Assembly: GCA_944322815.1 (NCBI GenBank)
Contig: CALUQB010000016.1
Coordinates: 1-55,233, forward strand
Source of the DNA: an uncultured Bacteroidales bacterium
GTDB lineage: Bacteria; Bacteroidota; Bacteroidia; Bacteroidales; UBA932
DNA: 55,233 nt
Reading direction: 5' to 3'
The position numbers and the translations under genes are program-made. A model generated the notes under the pieces. The model made no database searches. It saw only the letters and a list, made by a program, of their open reading frames with translations, and had not been told where the DNA came from. How positions within the stretch are numbered: position 1 is the stretch's first letter; each line of letters starts with the position of its first letter. This document shows, in pieces, positions 46,303 to 55,233 of the stretch.

Positions 46303-46377
46303 GGTGCCCATAGTTCAGTTGGTTAGAGCGTCAGATTGTGGTTCTGAATGTCGTCGGTTCGAATCCGACTGGGCACC
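46303..46377 (+). tRNA. tRNA-His (anticodon GTG)
   Basis: 75 bases. The acceptor stem is eight base pairs (GGTGCCCA with TGGGCACC), including the extra G at position -1 paired with C73 that marks tRNA-His. The D arm holds AGTTCAGTTGGTTAGAGC, the anticodon loop TTGTGGT gives GTG, and the T arm is TCGGTTCGAATCCGA. CCA is not encoded (CTT follows). A hairpin terminator follows directly, then an integrase gene, so the 3' end is a likely integration site. Confidence 0.97.
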
Positions 46378-46382
46378 CTTCC

Positions 46383-46422
46383 AAAGTCCTTGAAATCACG
46401 CGGTTTCAGGGACTTTTCTTTT
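46383..46422 (+). terminator. Intrinsic terminator after tRNA-His
   Basis: AAAGTCCTTGAAA pairs with TTTCAGGGACTTT around TCACGCGG, followed by TCTTTT. If the element integrated at the tRNA 3' end, this hairpin may belong to the element side. Confidence 0.75.
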
Positions 46423-46528
46423 ATGTATAGTTTCAGAAACTCATATTGATTCACCACAAAACAAGCCTTTTTGGATGTCATTTCTGCATTTGTTTATTAA
46501 TAGTTTATTAATTTTAAACAGATGTAAT

Positions 46529-47803
46529 ATGTTGACTTTCAGGACAGAAATAATGCCTTATGAGCAGAAGTCAGACAAAACATATAACGTGAAGATAAGG
46601 ATTACCTACCAAAGGAGGATAAGGAGAATCTCTACAAGCATTTTTGTCACAAAGGATGACCTTACCAAGTCATTCAAATTGAAGAATCCACGAGTGGTGG
46701 CAGAAGCAGACAAACTAATTAAGGAGTATCAATCCATTTGCAGTAAGTTACAAGTGGAATTGAATAATTATAGCATTGATGATATAATCAATCTCCTCAA
46801 AGAGGAAAAAACGAGGGTAAAATGTGTTGATTTTCTGAAGTTCAGTTATGACTGGATAAATACGACCTCTTCAAAAGGAGCAAAAAACTATAAATCGGCA
46901 ATAAATGCTTTTGCTTCTTATTTAGGTACAAAAACATTGGATATAAACCGGATTACTTCTGATATGCTGAAGGGCTTTTCTGAATATCTTGTCATAAAAA
47001 GAGAAAATAGAATCCGTGAAATGGCTGGAGCTGGAAAGAGAATTCCCTCGGACAGAATGGTTTCACTCTATTTGGGGAGTATCAGACATCTATTCAATCT
47101 GGCAAAGAAGCAGTATAATGACTATGACAAGGGGATAATAGTTGTCAAAAACTCCCCTTTTGAACATTTTGAAGTTCCCAAACAGGAAAGCGCAAGAAAA
47201 AGAGCCTTGTCTGCTGATATTGTTTTCAAAGTGTGGACACTGCCATATGTGCTTAATTCTGACGGAAAAGAACGCAAGTGTAGATATAATCTTGCCAAAG
47301 ATTGTTTTATCTTGTCTTTCTGCTTGATTGGGATGAATTCTGTAGACCTTTATAATGCCAGTGAGATGGATGATAATACAATCATTTATAACAGGACAAA
47401 AACTGCTGAAAGAAGAAGCGACCGGGCACTGATGAAAGTGAATATACCTTTTCAGATAAGGAATCTGATTGAAAAATACAGGGATAGGACAAGTAAGAGA
47501 GTGTTTGATTTCTACCAGTTATATTCAACGGCAAGCAGTTTCAACAGGGCGATAAACTACGGTCTTAAAGAGATTGGCAGGCAGTTGGGAGTTGATGACC
47601 TCGAATATTATGCAGCAAGACATAGTTGGGCTACATTAGCCATAAATCAAGCAGGGGTAGATAAGTACACAGTCCATTCAGCATTAAATCATATAGATAC
47701 TTCGATGAAAGTCACTGATATATATATTGAAAGAGATTTCAAGATTGAGAACGAAGCGAATAGGAAAGTAGTCAATCTTGTCTTTGGAGATGAGGTGTTG
47801 TAA
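46529..47803 (+). CDS. Tyrosine recombinase (integrase), Bacteroidetes type
   Basis: 424 residues from Met at 46529 (MLTFRTEIMPYEQKSDKTYN); an ATG at 46475 would add 18 hydrophobic residues and is less likely. N-terminal arm-binding and SAM-like regions (residues about 1-200) precede the catalytic domain: FCLIGMNSVDLYNASEMDD in place of the first catalytic Arg region, AARHSWATLAI with the Arg-His pair, HIDTSMKVTDIYIERDF with the nucleophile Tyr. It lies 150 bases after tRNA-His, pointing inward to an AT-rich region, as expected for an integrated element. Closest known relatives are integrases of Bacteroides conjugative or mobilizable elements. Confidence 0.93.
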   Translation: MLTFRTEIMPYEQKSDKTYNVKIRITYQRRIRRISTSIFVTKDDLTKSFKLKNPRVVAEADKLIKEYQSICSKLQVELNNYSIDDIINLLKEEKTRVKCVDFLKFSYDWINTTSSKGAKNYKSAINAFASYLGTKTLDINRITSDMLKGFSEYLVIKRENRIREMAGAGKRIPSDRMVSLYLGSIRHLFNLAKKQYNDYDKGIIVVKNSPFEHFEVPKQESARKRALSADIVFKVWTLPYVLNSDGKERKCRYNLAKDCFILSFCLIGMNSVDLYNASEMDDNTIIYNRTKTAERRSDRALMKVNIPFQIRNLIEKYRDRTSKRVFDFYQLYSTASSFNRAINYGLKEIGRQLGVDDLEYYAARHSWATLAINQAGVDKYTVHSALNHIDTSMKVTDIYIERDFKIENEANRKVVNLVFGDEVL

Positions 47804-47849: not shown

Positions 47850-48199
47850 ATTGTGTGGAATTTCTTGGATGGAACGAATCTAAATATCATAACATAATGG
47901 ATAAGACAAGTTGAGAAGTAGTTGTTTGTTGATATTTATTGAATTTGAGTTGTTTATAAATTGTCATATTCAATTTGTTAAAATAAATTTGCTTTTTTTC
48001 GAATTTATTTCTGAATCTTTGTGAGCCGGAGTTATTCCGGCGGACATAGAGAAAATTTCTCACGGGCAACTGAGCTGCCTTTTTATAGCTTAATCCGTGT
48101 AGTGATTTCCTACAAACAGTAATGTTTCTGCATAGCGGGAACAATGTTTAACTTGAATGCCTCTTAAGTAGGCGTTCATAAAAGAAGGAGGTTCACTAT
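47850..48199 (+). promoter_or_regulatory. AT-rich leader ahead of the helicase gene with three hairpins
   Basis: About 350 bases without a believable gene. Three stem-loops stand in its second half: GCCGGA-GTTAT-TCCGGC (48025-48041), GAGAAA-A-TTTCTC (48049-48061) and GAATGCCT-CTTAAGT-AGGCGTTC (48155-48177). The last sits just ahead of AAGGAGG (48184-48190), the ribosome-binding site of the helicase, so it could control its translation. A -7-like AATCTTTG lies near 48013-48020. A minus-strand ORF here (47887-48144) has no recognisable features. Confidence 0.5.
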
Positions 48200-50228
48200 A
48201 TGGACTTTTTTTTTAAACGCCCAACAAAGGGCAGCCGTTGAATACAATGGCAAACATCTCATGGTGCTTGCAGGGGCAGGCACAGGAAAGACAAGAACAA
48301 TAGCTGCGAGAGCAGCTTATCTGATTTCTCACGGTACAGACCCGAAAAGAATACAGATTCTCTCATTCACAAGAAAATCAGCAGGAGAGATAGTCGAAAG
48401 GGTCAAGGCTATGCTTCCGGAAGCAAAGGGACTTGATGGCAGCACTTTTCATTCATGGTGCTATAGGATAATCAGGTCAAATCCGAAGATATTTCCTTTT
48501 AGCGATTTTACGATTCTTGATGAGAGTGAACAGGAAGATGTGTTCCGATTCATTTTAGGTCAAAACAGTGAGGTCGCAGAAAGGACAGGGATAAAAGCCT
48601 GGGTCTTTAAAGATGTCTATTCAAAGGTCATAAATACGTGTTGTTCATTGTCAATGGCGATAAAGGATATTGTACTTGCAGAAGAAAGAATGACCGATGC
48701 GCAGAAAGACGGATGGGTAAGAAATAACAGGAGATATTTTAAAATAGTCATCCATCAGTACATTGACTATAAAGAACAGCACAAAAAGCTTGATTATGAT
48801 GACCTTCTGTTTCAGATTATAAATGTTTTGGGAAGCAATCCCGATGCAAAGAAGCATATTGCATCAAAATACGACCATATCCTTGTGGATGAAATGCAAG
48901 ATACAAATCCTCTTCAGTGGAAATTGTTGAATCTTTTTATAGATGATTGCCACCTTTTCTGTGTCGGGGATGACGCCCAGTCAATTTATGGCTTCAGAGG
49001 TGCGGATTTTCGTAATGTCCATTCTTTCAAGGACAGAGTGCCGGAATCATCTGTAATGAAGCTTGAAGACAACTACCGCTCTACACAGGAAATTCTTGAT
49101 GTTTCAAACTGGCTTATAGCGAAGTCTCCTTTGAAATATGACAAACAGCTTAGAAGCGTACGGGGGACAGGTAGCAAGCCTGAACTTGTCCACTTTGATT
49201 CAGAGTGGGATGAAGCCGGGTGGATTGCAGATGACATAATGAAAGGAATAACCGATTCAGAAAAATCTTATAGCGACTATATGGTGCTGTCAAGGACAAG
49301 TAACGGAACAAGAACACTCCAGACTATTTTTATGAAAAGGGGTATTCCATATCAGATTTTCGGAGGGATGAAGCTTATTGAATCCGCACATATCAGAGAT
49401 GTCCTGTCAGCACTGAAAATCACTGCAAATGTAAAAGATGATTTGTCATGGATGCGGTATCTCAAATTATGGCAAGGGATAGGAAACAAGACTTCGGCTA
49501 AGTTAGTAGGAGAAATCGGAAATTGTAAAACAATGGAAGATTGCATAACAGTGTTAAAGGGGATGAAAATAAAGGATAGCGATACGATAGACACTCTTGA
49601 TGCAATAAAGGATATGAACAATAATCCGTCAAAGGCATTGGAGATTGCCGTAGCGCATATGAAAAATATGTTGTCAGCCAGATATGGGAATGATTGGGAG
49701 AGAAAATCAAAAGATTTTCCCGTACTTATTAAAGTAGCCGAATCATACTCTACTGTAACTGAGTTTCTCAGTGACTTTACATTAAATCCAATACTTGATG
49801 AAGGAAATATGATTGCAGATGATTCACCGAGGGATGTAGTCACAATATCAACAATCCATTCAGCGAAAGGGCTTGAAGCTGACACTTGCTTTGTCTTGAA
49901 TGTTTCACCCGGATTATATCCGATGGCAAGGAATATCTCCAAAGGAAGCGATGATATAGAGGAAGAAAGAAGATGTCTGTATGTTGCATTGACAAGGGCA
50001 AAAAACAGGCTTGTGGTCACTCGGAATATCAGAAGCATACAATGCTCAAATGACGCATATGACCAAGAAGTTACCGCCCAACAGAATAATGACATTTATT
50101 TCTTTAATGAACTGCCTGATAATCTGTTTGAAACAGAGTATCCGAAAGACTATTCCATTGGGCAGGATAATTCATATACAGGGTGTGCGACAACGTGGAT
50201 TCCTGCCTGTGGGTTTGACTTCAATTAA
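48200..50228 (+). CDS. UvrD/Rep-like superfamily 1A helicase, start out of frame at a T9 tract
   Basis: The body from 48207 has all SF1A motifs: LNAQQRAAV (Q motif), VLAGAGTGKTRTIAARAAYL (Walker A), VDEMQDTNPLQ (motif II), GDDAQSIYGFRGAD, DNYRSTQEILD, TISTIHSAKGLEADTC and RRCLYVALTRAKNRLVVTR. It is an ATP-driven 3'-5' DNA helicase. The only start with a good ribosome-binding site (AAGGAGG, ten bases before) is ATG 48200, MDFF, but nine T at 48206-48214 put it one base out of frame. Eight T would give one ORF of about 675 residues. The first in-frame ATG, 48261, is inside the Walker A region and would remove the Q motif. It may be a sequencing error, a mutation, slippage or phase variation. 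Confidence 0.85.
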
Positions 50229-50271
50229 AATATCGTACCGTAATGGAGAAATAAAACAGGAGGGATGGTGT

Positions 50272-51909
50272 ATGAACTGGAAGTTTTGGAAAGGATGGTT
50301 TGAAGAAAGCACAGGCCGGATTAAAGATGTGGCTTCGGAAGAATTTGGCAATATAGAAAATCCGAAGTCTAATAAACTGTTTCTTGCAATTGCTCGGAAA
50401 CATGCAGGGGACTTTGCCATGATTCCTGAAAATCTTGATTTAGACAAGCATACTGAGCAATTTCCTCTGACAAATTATAAGTTCCGGAATAAAAGAGGGA
50501 CAGATGTCATCTATTCAAAAGAAAGTATCAAGTTTGACAAAGACCGTTTGGCTTATATCATAGGCCTTATAAGTTCCATTCCTGCGTCAAATAAGGATTC
50601 TATTACTGAAGATGGCTTTGTGCCAATATACTCAAAGTATATCCAGAGATTCTTCCCGGACTACAAATGCTATCTTGATTATCTCATCAAGACTGGGGTT
50701 ATAATTCCAGACGGTTTTTATATTGAGGGCAAAAAATCAATAGGCTATAAGTTTGCTCCATTTTATGAAAATGCCGGACTGGTAAAATATGTCTATCACA
50801 GGAAAAATCAAGGAAATGAAGAATCTGCAGCTGCTGTTCCTGCACAGACATATAACAAAGATAAAAACATATTAGAGGATAACCCGCTCGTAAATATACC
50901 TTATCTCTCCTTTTGGTATAACAATAAGAAACTTACAATAAGTTCAAGTGCAAGAGAATACGCATGGCAGGTCAAGGAAAGGAAATTTGCAGCTGGTGTT
51001 TTAAGTTGGGACGACAATCACGACAAATGGGATAAAAAGAAAAAGAGGTACTTCAAGAAAAATCCAAGGTCTCAGTATAATGCAGCCATGCATAATATAG
51101 CTGCAATAGAGATGGGGGCGTACAATGCCAAGATAGATTCAAATGTCCATAGGCTTCATTCTGCAATAACCAACATGCAGAAAGATTACAGAAACTTCCT
51201 CAAATATGACGGACAGGAACTTACAGCCATAGACATTTCAAACAGCCAGCCATTCCTGCTGTGCATATTGTTCAATCCTGATTTCTGGGATAAAAGTTCT
51301 GATGCTTATATCAATATAGGTCATCTTCCGGAGAACATCCAAAGGAGATTTTCAGATGAGCTGCTGGATGAAATAAAAACTTACGTGGCTTCTATGCCAG
51401 AGGACAGTAAATCCGAATATATCATCAAGGCTTCAAGTGGAGAAGTCTATGAGTTCATGATGGATAAAGCAAATGAACAATATCCGGGCTGCTGCAAAGA
51501 GAAAAAGGATGCCAAGATAATGATGCTGATAGCATTTTTCTCGGCAAACAGTTTTCTTAACCAGGGCAAGGAAGCTGCAAAGATGAAAAGAATATTCAAA
51601 GCCACTTTCCCTGAAATATACGGACTTATTGAACTTGCCAAGACAGGCAAGAAACAAAAGAACAGGTTTGCCTGCCTCTTGCAATCAGTCGAGAGTGAAA
51701 TAATACTGCACAGGTGCTGCAAAAGAATATGGGATGAGGGAGGGCACAATGTACCTGTATTTACTATCCACGACTCAATAGCCACCACTGCGGAGAATGT
51801 AGGGTTTGTAAGAAATATAATGAATGAGGAGCTGACTAAAGCAGCAGGGGTACACCCAAGTTTCAAGACTGAACTTTGGTCTGAATCTAATTTGATGACA
51901 GAAAACTGA
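50272..51909 (+). CDS. Divergent family-A polymerase-like protein
   Basis: 545 residues from ATG 50272 (MNWKFWKGWFEESTG), which has AGGAGG eight bases ahead; a longer reading from 50011 overlaps the helicase gene and is rejected. The C-terminal half resembles the palm of family-A DNA polymerases and phage-type RNA polymerases: motif A LTAIDISNSQPFLL (Asp321), motif B KKDAKIMMLIAFFSANSF (Lys411/Lys415, Phe422-423), then FKATFPEIYGLI, CLLQSVESEIIL and motif C VFTIHDSIATTAEN (His500-Asp501-Ser502). No 3'-5' exonuclease motifs were seen. The N-terminal half (about 1-300) is unrecognised. It follows the helicase by 43 bases, so it is probably a replication enzyme of the element. DNA or RNA product is not decided. 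Confidence 0.7.
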   Translation: MNWKFWKGWFEESTGRIKDVASEEFGNIENPKSNKLFLAIARKHAGDFAMIPENLDLDKHTEQFPLTNYKFRNKRGTDVIYSKESIKFDKDRLAYIIGLISSIPASNKDSITEDGFVPIYSKYIQRFFPDYKCYLDYLIKTGVIIPDGFYIEGKKSIGYKFAPFYENAGLVKYVYHRKNQGNEESAAAVPAQTYNKDKNILEDNPLVNIPYLSFWYNNKKLTISSSAREYAWQVKERKFAAGVLSWDDNHDKWDKKKKRYFKKNPRSQYNAAMHNIAAIEMGAYNAKIDSNVHRLHSAITNMQKDYRNFLKYDGQELTAIDISNSQPFLLCILFNPDFWDKSSDAYINIGHLPENIQRRFSDELLDEIKTYVASMPEDSKSEYIIKASSGEVYEFMMDKANEQYPGCCKEKKDAKIMMLIAFFSANSFLNQGKEAAKMKRIFKATFPEIYGLIELAKTGKKQKNRFACLLQSVESEIILHRCCKRIWDEGGHNVPVFTIHDSIATTAENVGFVRNIMNEELTKAAGVHPSFKTELWSESNLMTEN

Positions 51910-51934
51910 CAACCAAAACAATAGACAGATAAAT

Positions 51935-51994
51935 TGAGTGGATTTTTGTGTGTCCTATATAGGGCTGTTCTGCAAAAAATCCACTCATTTTTTT
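51935..51994 (+). terminator. Strong terminator after the polymerase-like gene
   Basis: TGAGTGGATTTTT (51935-51947) pairs with AAAAATCCACTCA (51975-51987), followed by seven T. An inner CCTATATAGG palindrome lies in the loop. It closes the helicase-polymerase transcript. Confidence 0.88.
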
Positions 51995-52353
51995 GATATT
52001 ACACATTCATATTACAACAAATTCAGTCTGATACACATAAGGATTTTTATAAAGTCCGGCAAATTATCCTGTTAAGCATATAAGCAAACCATTTATAAAA
52101 ACCTCACCATTTGGCTTATCTCAAGTGACAAAACCACTTATGCTGCATAGGCTATTCTATGACTATTCTGTGTCATTCCTGACCATTGGGTATCTCCTCA
52201 GGAGAAATATTTTTCTGAAAAATTTTTCAAAATTTTAGAATTTTTTTGGAATCCCTGCAAGCCCGGAGTAACCCGGAGCAACCCACCCCAGCATTCAGGA
52301 GGTGGGACATCCCCCTCCTGCAACAAAGTTCAACAATAAAAACAGTTAGAGTT
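51995..52353 (+). promoter_or_regulatory. Intergenic region with a leader hairpin ahead of the small gene
   Basis: About 360 bases. The first part is AT-rich and shows nothing clear. From 52255 the composition changes to GC-rich, and CAGGAGG-TGGGACATCCC-CCTCCTG (52296-52320) forms a hairpin 33 bases before the next start. This could be an attenuator or a protein-binding leader. No ribosome-binding site is evident besides the AGGAGG within the hairpin. Confidence 0.45.
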
Positions 52354-52623
52354 ATGGAAAATCTGAGATTTGTGCGGACAATGTCCGTGGAAGACTTCAA
52401 GAAGGGTATGGGAGTGCCTGAGATTGAAGTGAAGAAGAACCCACACACAGGCAAATGCTTCTTTGTCTATGGCAATGAGGTGGGTGCAGTGAGTTCAAGG
52501 TTTGAAAGAGGAGGGATTGATATGCCTGTCATCTCACAGGTATGCTCGGCAGACACAGGGGAGCTGTTCTTTATGCTCCACCAGAGGGGTGAAGGAGGAT
52601 GCGCAACACTTGCAAGATTTTGA
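52354..52623 (+). CDS. Small protein of unknown function (element gene)
   Basis: 89 residues from MENLRFVRTMSVEDFKKGMG. An ATG at 52246 would add 36 residues rich in Gln and Pro that cover the leader hairpin, so it is rejected. It has no signal or membrane helix. The middle reads KKNPHTGKCFFVYGNEVGAV and the end GELFFMLHQRGEGGCATLAR, looking like a small beta-rich fold. I do not recognise the family. It precedes the RecA-like ATPase by 112 bases and shares its base composition, which is more GC-rich than the helicase and polymerase genes. Confidence 0.7.
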   Translation: MENLRFVRTMSVEDFKKGMGVPEIEVKKNPHTGKCFFVYGNEVGAVSSRFERGGIDMPVISQVCSADTGELFFMLHQRGEGGCATLARF

Positions 52624-52735
52624 CCTTGCACCGTCTTATATCTGGAAAGTCAGGCTGTCATCAGTCTGGCTTTTCCCCTATCAAAAATTTAAGGTTTTAC
52701 AGTTTGTCATTCGGACTAAAAATTTGAAATCAGTT

Positions 52736-53542
52736 ATGGACACAACTACACTTAGGGTATCATCAAAGAGGCAGGCCAAGATAAAGATGGCACTGCAAGG
52801 CTGTGCAGGCAGTGGCAAGACCTACTCTGCACTTCTTCTTGCCTATGGTCTTACCAAGGACTGGTCAAAGATTGCCGTAATAGATTCAGAGAATGGCTCT
52901 GCTGACCTCTATGCAAATCTGGGCAGTTACAATGTGCTGCCAATCACAGACTATTCCCCCGAAGCCTACATTGAGGCAATCAACATCTGTGAGAATGCTG
53001 GGATGGAGGTAATCATCATTGACTCAATCTCCCACTGCTGGGACTATCTCCTGGAATACCATGCAGGACTTATGGGGAACTCCTTTGTGAACTGGGGCAA
53101 GGTGACCCCAAGGCAGACAGCCTTCATACAGAGGATTCTCAAGAGCAGATGCCACATAATCTGCACAATGAGGACAAAGCAGGACTATGTTCTCAATGAG
53201 AGGAACGGGAAAATGGTTCCTGAAAAGGTGGGGCTCAAGGCAGTTATGAGGGATGGTGTTGACTATGAGTTCACAATAGTGCTTGACCTGGACCTGAAGC
53301 ACCATTCTGTTGCATCAAAGGACAGGACAGGGCTGTTTATGGGGAAACCTGAATTCACAATCACTCCACAGACTGGAGAGTCAATCCTGAAATGGTGCAA
53401 CACAAAGAGCAGACCAGATGTGGTCAGTGGTGCAGGCTTCCAGATGAGCCAGCCAGTGAACAGCCAGCCAAGAGAGTATAACAACAATCAACAAAATCAG
53501 AAATACTATGGAAACAATGTATATGCGCAGAGCAGGAACTGA
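52736..53542 (+). CDS. RecA-like P-loop ATPase of phage Sak4/AAA_24 type
   Basis: 268 residues from MDTTTLRVSSKRQAKIKMAL; a longer reading from 52502 overlaps the previous gene and is rejected. Walker A is QGCAGSGKTYSALLLAYGL (residues 21-39), Walker B VIIIDSISH (Asp96), then a motif-III-like HIICTMRTKQDYVL. The tail after 235 is Gln/Asn-rich and disordered (NNNQQNQKYYGNN). Proteins of this kind in phages and mobile elements help pair or anneal single-stranded DNA, often beside an SSB or recombinase; that role is inferred here. It overlaps the next gene by 35 bases. Confidence 0.85.
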   Translation: MDTTTLRVSSKRQAKIKMALQGCAGSGKTYSALLLAYGLTKDWSKIAVIDSENGSADLYANLGSYNVLPITDYSPEAYIEAINICENAGMEVIIIDSISHCWDYLLEYHAGLMGNSFVNWGKVTPRQTAFIQRILKSRCHIICTMRTKQDYVLNERNGKMVPEKVGLKAVMRDGVDYEFTIVLDLDLKHHSVASKDRTGLFMGKPEFTITPQTGESILKWCNTKSRPDVVSGAGFQMSQPVNSQPREYNNNQQNQKYYGNNVYAQSRN

Positions 53543-54701
53543 ACAGAGAGTGTTACTGCCGGATGAAATAAGGGACATCAACAACAGGAGGATAGGGATA
53601 AACCCTGATTCACTTGCACCAAAACTGCTGAAGCAGGCTGTGATGAATCAGATTGCTCCAGCATCAGGAGCTGTGTCAAATGTAGCCACTTCTCCTATAA
53701 TAGACAAAAGAAGTGAATACAAGCCTTATGCTGTGGTATCTCCTGAAACAGATGCCACTCCAAAAGAGAATCTGTCCTCCAAAAGACTTCCATTCATAGA
53801 AGCCAACACAAAGGAAGTGAGTGTGGGACATCTGAAGAATGACTGCATAATTCCGGTATTCTCAAAGGACAATGAGATAACCATATCCCACCATTCTTTC
53901 ATAGAAGCGGTCTATGATGCGGCAAATGAGGTATTCAGAGGAGAAAGGGTTGACAATCCGGATGTAAGAGTCAGCCACATAATAAAAGGAAGAATCCCTG
54001 AAGCGATGAATAAGCCTGTAAGTTCACTTTTGGACAGTGACAAGACCATCTATTATGAAAGGATGATGTTCTGCATGGAGATACCTACCATATATGAAGA
54101 TATAGCCGGAAACAGGCTTAATCTGACAGTAGGAGGAGTGAGGGCATACAATCAGGAGAATCTGTACAGCAGGAAGACATTCGAGAAGTTCAAGGTGTTC
54201 ATTGGCTTCAAAAATATGGTGTGCTGCAACATGTGCATATCAACAGATGGGTACAGGTCAGAGATAAGGGCAATGAGTATTGGGGAACTCTACAGAGCAG
54301 CAATAGGTCTGTTTCAGAGTTACTCAATGGACAACCATATCCAGCAGATGAGTAGGTTGCAGGAATACTCCATAAGTGAAGCCCAGTTGGCCCAGTTCCT
54401 TGGGAAGTCAAGGATGTACCAGTATCTTCCGAACAAGGAGAGAAAACAACTTCCTGAAATGCTGATGACAGACACACAGATAAACCTTGTAACAAAGGCT
54501 TACTACAATGACAGTAATTTTGGAAGAAAGCCTGATGAAAAGAAACTCTCAATGTGGAAGATGTACAATCTCCTCACAGGAGCAAACAAATCCTCCTACA
54601 TTGACAGCTTCCTTGACAGGTCATTGAATGCAGGGGAACTCTCATCAGGGATATGCAGGGCTCTCAAGGGAGATGATGAATATTCCTGGTTCATCAGGTA
54701 A
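53508..54701 (+). CDS. DUF3871-like protein
   Basis: 397 residues from METMYMRRAGTEQRVLLPDE; Met4 or Met6 are possible starts. The variable first 110 residues are followed by a conserved core with HHSFIEAVYDAANEVF, SHIIKGRIPEAMNKPVSSLL, KTIYYERMMFCMEIPTIYED and LTVGGVRAYNQENLYSRKTF. These agree with my memory of DUF3871, an uncharacterised family of Bacteroidetes mobile elements, but the family name should be checked. No enzyme motif or membrane helix was seen. It is translated in overlap with the RecA-like ATPase, so the two probably work together. Confidence 0.75.
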   Translation: METMYMRRAGTEQRVLLPDEIRDINNRRIGINPDSLAPKLLKQAVMNQIAPASGAVSNVATSPIIDKRSEYKPYAVVSPETDATPKENLSSKRLPFIEANTKEVSVGHLKNDCIIPVFSKDNEITISHHSFIEAVYDAANEVFRGERVDNPDVRVSHIIKGRIPEAMNKPVSSLLDSDKTIYYERMMFCMEIPTIYEDIAGNRLNLTVGGVRAYNQENLYSRKTFEKFKVFIGFKNMVCCNMCISTDGYRSEIRAMSIGELYRAAIGLFQSYSMDNHIQQMSRLQEYSISEAQLAQFLGKSRMYQYLPNKERKQLPEMLMTDTQINLVTKAYYNDSNFGRKPDEKKLSMWKMYNLLTGANKSSYIDSFLDRSLNAGELSSGICRALKGDDEYSWFIR

Positions 54702-54843
54702 TCATCACTCAATCTTCTCTCACATATAGCCTGTCTGTATTTATCCATTATGTTAGGATATTTTTTGAATGGCATATCTGGGCATAAACTCATAGATATT
54801 ATAATTATCTATATTATATGACTAAGTGCGCAGATATGCCAAA
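54702..54843. promoter_or_regulatory. Intergenic region with a large inverted repeat
   Basis: TGGCATATCTG (54770-54780) pairs perfectly with CAGATATGCCA (54831-54841). Between them lies the AT-rich palindrome AGATATTATAATTATCT. The right arm ends two bases before the next ATG. It may be an operator, a replication or transfer site, or a strand-exchange site. Confidence 0.55.
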
Positions 54844-54972
54844 ATGATTGATGAAATGGATGAGTTTTTTGCAGCAGCAGTCCCAGCCATACTCCAGCTG
54901 ATAACTAGTCTTGCAGTTATGTGCTGGCTGTTTGGTGGTGAGGACAGGAGAAAGGAAAACAGGAAGAAATGA
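54844..54972 (+). CDS. 42-residue single-helix membrane protein
   Basis: MIDEMDEFFAAAVPAILQLI then TSLAVMCWLFGGEDRRKENRKK. An acidic head, one membrane helix (about residues 9-31) and a basic tail: small phage-type or element-type membrane protein. The stop overlaps the start of the next small ORF as ATGA, which supports both. No family recognised; a holin-like or transfer-entry role is only a guess. Confidence 0.55.
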   Translation: MIDEMDEFFAAAVPAILQLITSLAVMCWLFGGEDRRKENRKK

Positions 54973-55106
54973 ATATAGGGGCTTGGAATGCCCCTTGTTT
55001 GTTTTTATTGTTGGGAGCCATGATCTTTTTATGGGGTTGTGGCTCTTTTATCTATACATCTGACAGAGAATATCTTGGACAGATGAAAATTAAAGCCGAA
55101 ATTTGA
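54969..55106 (+). CDS. 45-residue lipoprotein-like small protein
   Basis: MNIGAWNAPCLFLLLGAMIF then LWGCGSFIYTSDREYLGQMK and a short tail. A hydrophobic segment ending in LWGCGS looks like a lipobox. It starts inside the stop codon of the preceding gene (ATGA). The hairpin AGGGGC-GCCCCT (54977-54995) lies in its 5' end and could be RNA structure within the gene. Unknown family. Confidence 0.45.
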   Translation: MNIGAWNAPCLFLLLGAMIFLWGCGSFIYTSDREYLGQMKIKAEI

Positions 55107-55119
55107 CATTCAATACTCC

Positions 55120-55233
55120 ATGAGTGTTGTCCATTATGTCGGAAATGTTTTCTATCTTCCGGAGTTTGACACTTTGAAAGTAAGAAAAACGAAGAAAAAG
55201 TTGGCTGGAGATTGCTGCAGTGGCGATTTTCAG
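55120..55233 (+). CDS. Start of an ORF running off the window
   Basis: MSVVHYVGNVFYLPEFDTLK followed by VRKTKKKLAGDCCSGDFQ, open to the last base. It begins 14 bases after the previous ORF. Too short for a family call; the first residues look like a folded protein rather than random text. Confidence 0.35.
   Translation, partial: MSVVHYVGNVFYLPEFDTLKVRKTKKKLAGDCCSGDFQ

Follow-up and report, generated by a model that had tools for sequence, protein, structure and literature searches.

What does a gene encode that follows a helicase gene in an integrated element and that the common family collections do not recognise? The question is raised by an open reading frame (ORF) at positions 50272 to 51909 of a contig from an uncultured Bacteroidales bacterium of the gut (GenBank assembly GCA_944322815.1, contig CALUQB010000016.1; lineage UBA932), all 55,233 nucleotides of which were analysed and are here called the window. 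We consider it fairly probable that this gene is the replication polymerase of a small element integrated at a transfer RNA (tRNA) gene, and that its product is a TV-Pol-like, exonuclease-free DNA polymerase of family A, probably a primase-polymerase. The TV-Pols, or transposon-virus polymerases, were described by Iyer, Abhiman and Aravind in 2008, and both primase and polymerase activity were predicted for them (PMC2579912). The computed basis of our assignment consists of a family-A fold, conserved catalytic residues, a two-domain layout like that of TV-Pols, and the integrase and tRNA context of the gene.

The ORF and its predicted fold

The gene and its recognisable parts are the following.

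50272..51909, + strand: TV-Pol-like family-A polymerase, 545 amino acids, with a winged-helix-like N-terminal domain and a minimal palm and fingers
50527..50769, + strand: winged-helix-like domain of the polymerase (about residues 86-166)
51229..51255, + strand: motif A, IDISNSQPF (D321)
51502..51549, + strand: motif B of the fingers (K411...K415...F423-S-x-N426)
51766..51777, + strand: motif C, IHDS (D501)

The ORF was found at the place and with the 545-residue size reported in a first-pass annotation of this DNA. It is intact, beginning with ATG at 50272 and continuing for 545 codons to a stop that ends at 51909. The open frame extends upstream to a TTG at 50011; the two closest relatives align from approximately the ATG (query residues 1-543 and 1-545), and AGGAGG lies just 5' of it.

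Conventional searches give the protein no name. No Pfam family matches it at E<=10, including DNA_pol_A (PF00476), and no NCBIfam family matches at 0.001. The protein alone yields only weak chance rows in PHROGs and nothing useful in a PDB sequence search, and the sole match of a PDB profile search was judged to be due to chance. The same holds for its relatives: when 65 members of the clade described below were scanned singly, none had a credible Pfam match and DNA_pol_A was absent at E<=0.1, while one PHROGs family of unknown function (phrog_4756) matched five of the 65. An exonuclease domain, reported as missing by the first-pass annotation, was found neither by Pfam at E<=10 nor in the predicted model, and the size of the protein agrees with this. 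The ordinary PolA of the host is located on a different contig.

The first-pass annotation had proposed structure prediction and comparison of hidden Markov model (HMM) profiles as checks on a polymerase palm. An AlphaFold model of the protein (pLDDT 85.7) contains a family-A palm and fingers, and its top structural matches in Foldseek and VIA-align are Pol I, Taq, T7 DNA polymerase, and Pol theta. In VIA-align, where the full model was used, all 50 rows among the matches listed are DNA polymerases. In it, strand 315-322 has D321 near its C-terminal end, and D501 falls in the turn of a hairpin (497-499/502-506), a palm-like arrangement. The predicted fold thus contains a palm, with DNA polymerases as its nearest folds, and we regard a family-A palm in this protein as near certain.

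The three motifs proposed at the outset are conserved in an alignment of 90 rows, which represent 89 distinct genes. In motif A, D321 is found in 89 rows, N324 in 85, and Q326 in 88, although 60 of the 90 rows were retrieved with the motif A pattern D[IL]xNSQPxx, so that conservation of this motif, but not of the others, is partly the result of selection. The fingers lysine K415 is invariant (90/90), as are E474 and an arginine preceding motif A (R294). Motif C is HDS, as originally read (H500 in 89/90, D501 in 90/90, S502 in 87/90). The first position of the RxxxK segment that TV-Pols have in the fingers is less constant, being Arg in 64 rows and Lys in 21, the window protein among those with Lys.

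The first-pass annotation also compared the spacing of the motifs with that of both DNA polymerase I and phage-type RNA polymerases. The comparison with DNA polymerases holds overall: motifs A and C are 180 residues apart in the window protein, 177 in the host PolA, and 179 in T7 DNA polymerase, versus 275 in T7 RNA polymerase. The comparison with phage RNA polymerase holds for the A-B interval only, and fails for A-C and B-C. This A-B interval of 94 residues is identical to that of T7 RNA polymerase and is long for the clade (median 56.5, range 51-124). The B-C interval is 86 residues (clade median 79, range 73-109 in 90 rows), as against 181 in T7 RNA polymerase, where it holds the promoter specificity loop. 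No clade row exceeds 109 residues here, which is too short for a loop of the T7 type.

These intervals bear on whether the protein could instead be a single-subunit RNA polymerase or an RNA primase that uses nucleoside triphosphates for transcription or priming of the element. Residues near the substrate and structural matches bear on it as well. The position five residues after the motif A aspartate (D+5) is Gly in T7 RNA polymerase, Glu in the host PolA, and Gln in 88 of the 90 clade rows, with His in the remaining two, and the rows listed by VIA-align are all DNA polymerases. The position eight residues after the fingers lysine (K+8) is Tyr in T7 RNA polymerase and Phe (78/90) or Tyr (10/90) in the clade; in T7 RNA polymerase, changing this Tyr to Phe relaxes ribose selection. 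The B-C interval, the residue at D+5, and the VIA-align rows speak against an RNA polymerase or RNA primase, which we consider improbable, and a promoter-specific enzyme of the T7 type is unlikely. Of the functions first suggested for this gene, an element-specific or primase-like DNA polymerase gains support, and the B-C interval argues against the single-subunit RNA polymerase. Motifs A and C are spaced as in DNA polymerases, and B and C lie close together; use of deoxynucleoside triphosphates (dNTPs) appears the likelier reading from the sequence.

The N-terminal 300 residues, initially described as unknown, are not wholly so: part of this region is predicted to form a winged-helix-like domain. 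A Foldseek search with the N-terminal model returned no row at E<=0.001. The winged helix, a weak match, suggests that the protein may bind specific DNA.

Relatives and placement among family-A polymerases

The polymerase belongs to a large unnamed clade, members of which occur in elements of Bacteroidota, on a Hymenobacter plasmid, and on viral contigs of up to 735 kb. Direct searches recovered relatives from huge phages, where three distinct genomes have one at 26-28% identity, from the Hymenobacter plasmid (29.5% identity), from further Bacteroidales genomes, and from IMG/VR; a fourth huge-phage record, LR756503, shares length and place with LR756501 and is not counted as distinct. With the single protein as query, rows were obtained in eight of 393 genomes of the order, including that of the window, although at least one (L013) resembles, by eye, an unrelated membrane or HD-type protein. 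A query built from 15 aligned sequences found rows in 16 genomes out of 296 sampled across the phylum; that of the window is once more among them, and several rows are weak. In viral contigs, an alignment-based scan confirmed 115 relatives, and 80 of these were retained. One genome, G476, carries three separate clade loci (L262, L263, and L269). Searches of the open-access literature for TV-Pol, for A-family polymerases of Bacteroides-type elements, for phage satellites, and, among the papers listed, for huge phages brought up no description of this clade.

To place the clade, a profile of its 90 rows (87 used) was compared with small sets of four TV-Pols, six divPolA2 sequences, and 19 PolA sequences; the divPolA2 set consists of relatives taken from phage records. 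The match to TV-Pol (Prob 97.0, E 1e-10) spans 342 columns, and persists when the N-terminal domain (77.6%, E 1.9e-5) or the C-terminal part (88.7%) is used alone. The match to divPolA2 (97.7%, E 1.5e-12) covers the catalytic half; the N-terminal domain scores 0.9% against this set of only six sequences. TV-Pol and divPolA2 compared directly do not match (7.6%). Decoys and four unrelated profiles scored far below the TV-Pol and divPolA2 matches of the clade. The HMM comparison proposed at the outset gave a weaker match to PolA, likewise in the catalytic half (81.0%; score 49.8, about twice the 24.4 of its reversed decoy); the corresponding value for T7 RNA polymerase, 0.4%, is uninformative, because a control comparison of PolA with T7 RNA polymerase fails as well (0.7%). 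A scan of viral contigs with one divPolA2 sequence found no relative.

In a tree of 83 rows and 228 columns the members of the clade group together (SH-aLRT 92), and the three TV-Pols, six divPolA2, and five PolA sequences included all lie outside. The search behind this tree was quick, several branches are long, the position of the root is not known, and in the underlying alignment one TV-Pol is out of register at the motif C column. Judged from the profile match, which takes in the winged-helix-like N-terminal domain, the nearest named kind is TV-Pol. Since the tree sets the clade apart, and since it includes few TV-Pols and long branches, we describe it as a TV-Pol-like clade of its own rather than as TV-Pol proper.

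The features shared with TV-Pols are a minimal, nuclease-free family-A core, the template-strand arginine in a hairpin before motif A, the two aspartates and the fingers lysine, an [LF]QxxE segment, an N-terminal domain that is common at the profile level, and occurrence in viruses and in small elements that bear an integrase, as here. The two kinds differ at each motif, as compared by eye with five sampled TV-Pols. Motif A of the clade is D[IL]xNSQP, whereas D+5 is His in four of the five, with the Calothrix relative L217 sharing the Gln of the clade. Motif B ends in F[GS]xN, whereas the TV-Pols have Gly at K+9 in all five and YG in three. Motif C is HDS, whereas TV-Pols have HDG in three cases and YDG in one, L217 being incomplete there. 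In addition, the window helicase is UvrD-like, and no D5-like helicase is found in the window. The list of Iyer and colleagues names Bacteroidetes members, from Cytophaga, Polaribacter, and Psychroflexus (PMC2579912), some of which may belong to the present clade.

CcPol-MP, a PolA-SSB primase of SCC elements, is a proven DNA primase; according to PMC7581432, CcPol without MP only extends primers and possesses equivalents of the Pol I sugar-gate residues E710 and F762, and according to PMC10061031 it retains part of an exonuclease domain. The clade resembles PolA-SSB primases in being element-borne A-family polymerases near a recombinase or helicase. It differs in having Gln (88/90) or His (2/90) at the E710 equivalent; the F762 equivalent is Leu in the window protein and Tyr or Phe in 73 of 90 clade rows. 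Whereas CcPol needs its OB-fold partner MP, no partner is known for the window polymerase, which has instead a winged-helix-like domain. The behaviour of CcPol without MP lends some weight to a different account, in which the gene would encode a DNA polymerase of the element that extends primers only and serves in repair, gap filling, or replication restart, while the host starts replication. We think this account unlikely; no SSB-like partner is known beside the polymerase, no search by folding having been made, and this too agrees with it.

In PMC11348598, divPolA2 is described from barbaviruses, where it occurs beside a regular family-B polymerase, and from ICP1 and related phages. The clade shares with it a small, exonuclease-free A-family palm and a closely matching catalytic half, but differs in its motif A and its separate position in the tree, and its N-terminal domain matches none in the six divPolA2 sequences compared. 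DNA polymerase I (PF00476) and T7 RNA polymerase share the palm and fingers fold; the former differs from the clade in its Pfam match and its exonuclease.

Integrated elements and large viral contigs

The remaining features of the window element are the following.

46304..46378, + strand: tRNA-His(gtg), the probable attachment site and left end of the element (ARAGORN)
46475..47803, + strand: tyrosine recombinase (integrase; Pfam Phage_int_SAM_5, E 1.6e-8; PHROG integrase, 6.8e-7)
48261..50228, + strand: UvrD/PcrA/Rep-like SF1 helicase, present in 3 of 38 loci (window, L002, and L003)
52354..52623, + strand: small conserved ORF, 89 amino acids, which recurs in L002, L017, and L022
52502..53542, + strand: AAA_24/Sak4-like ATPase of the single-strand annealing type (Pfam AAA_24, 3.5e-19; PHROG Sak4-like, 3.6e-10), the true start of which probably lies inside this ORF
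53508..54701, + strand: DUF3871 protein (Pfam, 7.4e-142), which recurs in related elements

The integrase begins 97 bases downstream of the end of tRNA-His (46378 to 46475) and is followed in order by the helicase, the polymerase, the 89-residue ORF, the Sak4-like ATPase, and DUF3871; the polymerase thus follows a helicase, as the first-pass annotation stated. No right attachment site or repeat pair was found in the window, which ends with the contig at 55233. Positions 47980-55049 are 87.8% identical to L002. This similarity does not extend to the integrase region, and L002 lies at a tRNA for Gly; because both integrase region and tRNA differ, we infer that integrase and target were exchanged. 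Compared with L002, its closest relative, the helicase ORF begins about 19 codons further in, beside a run of T (48200-48261). The cause may be a shifted frame, a fault in the assembly, or the use of another start, and some relatives have the gene intact.

In a survey of 38 loci, 35 of which have a called polymerase gene (two pairs among them, L004/L017 and L023/L024, are closely similar, which makes the counts partly dependent), a tyrosine integrase lies in the fetched stretch at 18 of the 35, and a serine-recombinase-like gene in three more. The Sak4-like gene recurs in seven of the 38 loci, DUF3871 in six, and the UvrD-like helicase in three, and we rejected the helicase as a conserved partner of the polymerase. 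A scan of 28 loci found a tRNA in 15 and, in five, a tRNA-overlapping pair of direct repeats that encloses the polymerase. These elements measure 6.0, 6.4, 7.2, 10.8, and 16.3 kb, the weakest pair being the 17-bp repeats of L270. In the two smallest, L005 and L273, the polymerase is the only recognisable replication gene; beside it were called an integrase, a protein with a weak HTH_17 match (in L273), and ORFs without replication domains. This, together with the weakly matched winged helix and the specific DNA binding that it suggests, speaks against a role confined to accessory repair.

Individual loci show further detail. The 6.0-kb repeat-bounded element L005:6343-12446 lies at a tRNA-Ser in Dysgonomonas; apart from the integrase and the polymerase, its called genes are two ORFs that lack replication domains, one of them with a PsbP-like domain. 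The element at L270:4440-11608 (about 7.2 kb, tRNA-Met) has, in addition to integrase and polymerase, a DUF5681 gene and one whose product matches terminase large subunits weakly and below cut-off; it may be a phage satellite or remnant. In L257-L273 a small helix-turn-helix gene lies between integrase and polymerase (HTH_17 in L260; weak in L273), and several of these loci have a protein of 300-340 amino acids there (no Pfam match in the two scanned); these genes upstream of the polymerase resemble an excisionase module.

Related elements also carry defence genes. Nine of ten element proteins tried match PADLOC models, with clear matches to SIR2/ThsA-like and to type I, type II, and type IIG restriction proteins, and generic ones for an AAA ATPase and for the window helicase, whose best rows are RTasHel and GajB. 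At L022:2745-10421 a SIR2/ThsA-like protein, an AAA ATPase, and a 726-residue protein without PADLOC match surround the polymerase and are candidate defence cargo. The polymerase might itself be cargo of this kind, a defence or anti-plasmid enzyme perhaps paired with the UvrD-like helicase, and the company it keeps and the helicase rows favour this. However, such rows are expected of UvrD helicases in general, the helicase adjoins the polymerase at so few loci while a tyrosine integrase is present at about half of those with a called gene, the polymerase is retained while defence genes vary between elements, and the clade is common in viral contigs. We consider a cargo role very improbable.

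The viral setting was surveyed in 25 records of 94-735 kb, chosen mostly by size from 83 viral loci (L019-L101); some may be fragments, so that absences are weak. Matches to a family-B polymerase were obtained in 18 of them, to DnaB in 17 (above cut-off in 14), to Toprim_2 in eight (above cut-off in six), to DNAG_N in one, and to Zn_ribbon_DnaG in one, below cut-off; PolA and PolIII alpha are each matched in the same two records. The clade gene as main polymerase of huge phages was rejected for most records given the family-B enzymes, and we do not claim that it replaces a primase, as Toprim primases coexist with it in several. In these records, as with divPolA2 in barbaviruses, the clade enzyme looks like an additional polymerase, and the family-B polymerases and Toprim primases are compatible with the repair or primer-extension account. 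Two huge phages have a short PolA-like gene immediately 3' of the TV-Pol-like one (at L026:8110-9396, where it encodes 429 amino acids, and at 393932-394588 of LR756511), so that two family-A polymerases stand side by side.

Proposed role and significance

A function as replication polymerase of the element is likely, and primase activity and origin recognition are plausible by analogy with CcPol-MP (PMC7581432). From the computed features we infer dNTP use, priming, origin binding, helper roles, and a need for the polymerase in element replication. In such a scheme the integrase would excise the element at its tRNA site, and the N-terminal winged helix would then recruit the polymerase to the element DNA or origin. 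The palm, with D321 and D501 as predicted metal ligands, and the fingers with K415 would copy the exposed strand into DNA, strands perhaps being begun by the same polymerase without a host primer. An SF1 helicase would open the DNA, here the UvrD/PcrA-like enzyme of the element and elsewhere presumably one of the host, and the Sak4-like ATPase would deal with single strands.

A further step is tentative: the clade may consist of self-contained initiator-primase-polymerases, combining origin recognition by the winged helix, starts that need neither primer nor SSB, and extension, and kept or captured by very large phages. If this is true, 6-kb tRNA elements would replicate without any other replication gene. 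As nearly all known primases belong to the DnaG or AEP families (PMC10061031), an A-family enzyme able to prime and replicate a 6-kb element by itself would offer a compact system in which to study how primases arise from polymerases.

The clade is a variant of a polymerase kind predicted in 2008, not a new kind. It enlarges a thinly sampled group of minimal mobile-element polymerases, and in the present sample it links TV-Pol and divPolA2, which do not match when compared with each other. It lies outside Pfam (65 members) and NCBIfam (window protein) and is barely touched by PHROGs, so that its recognition gives a label to an unannotated gene of defence-carrying islands and of phages up to 735 kb. 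Its interest lies in the size and spread of this unlabelled clade and in a putative single-protein replication system that can be tested.
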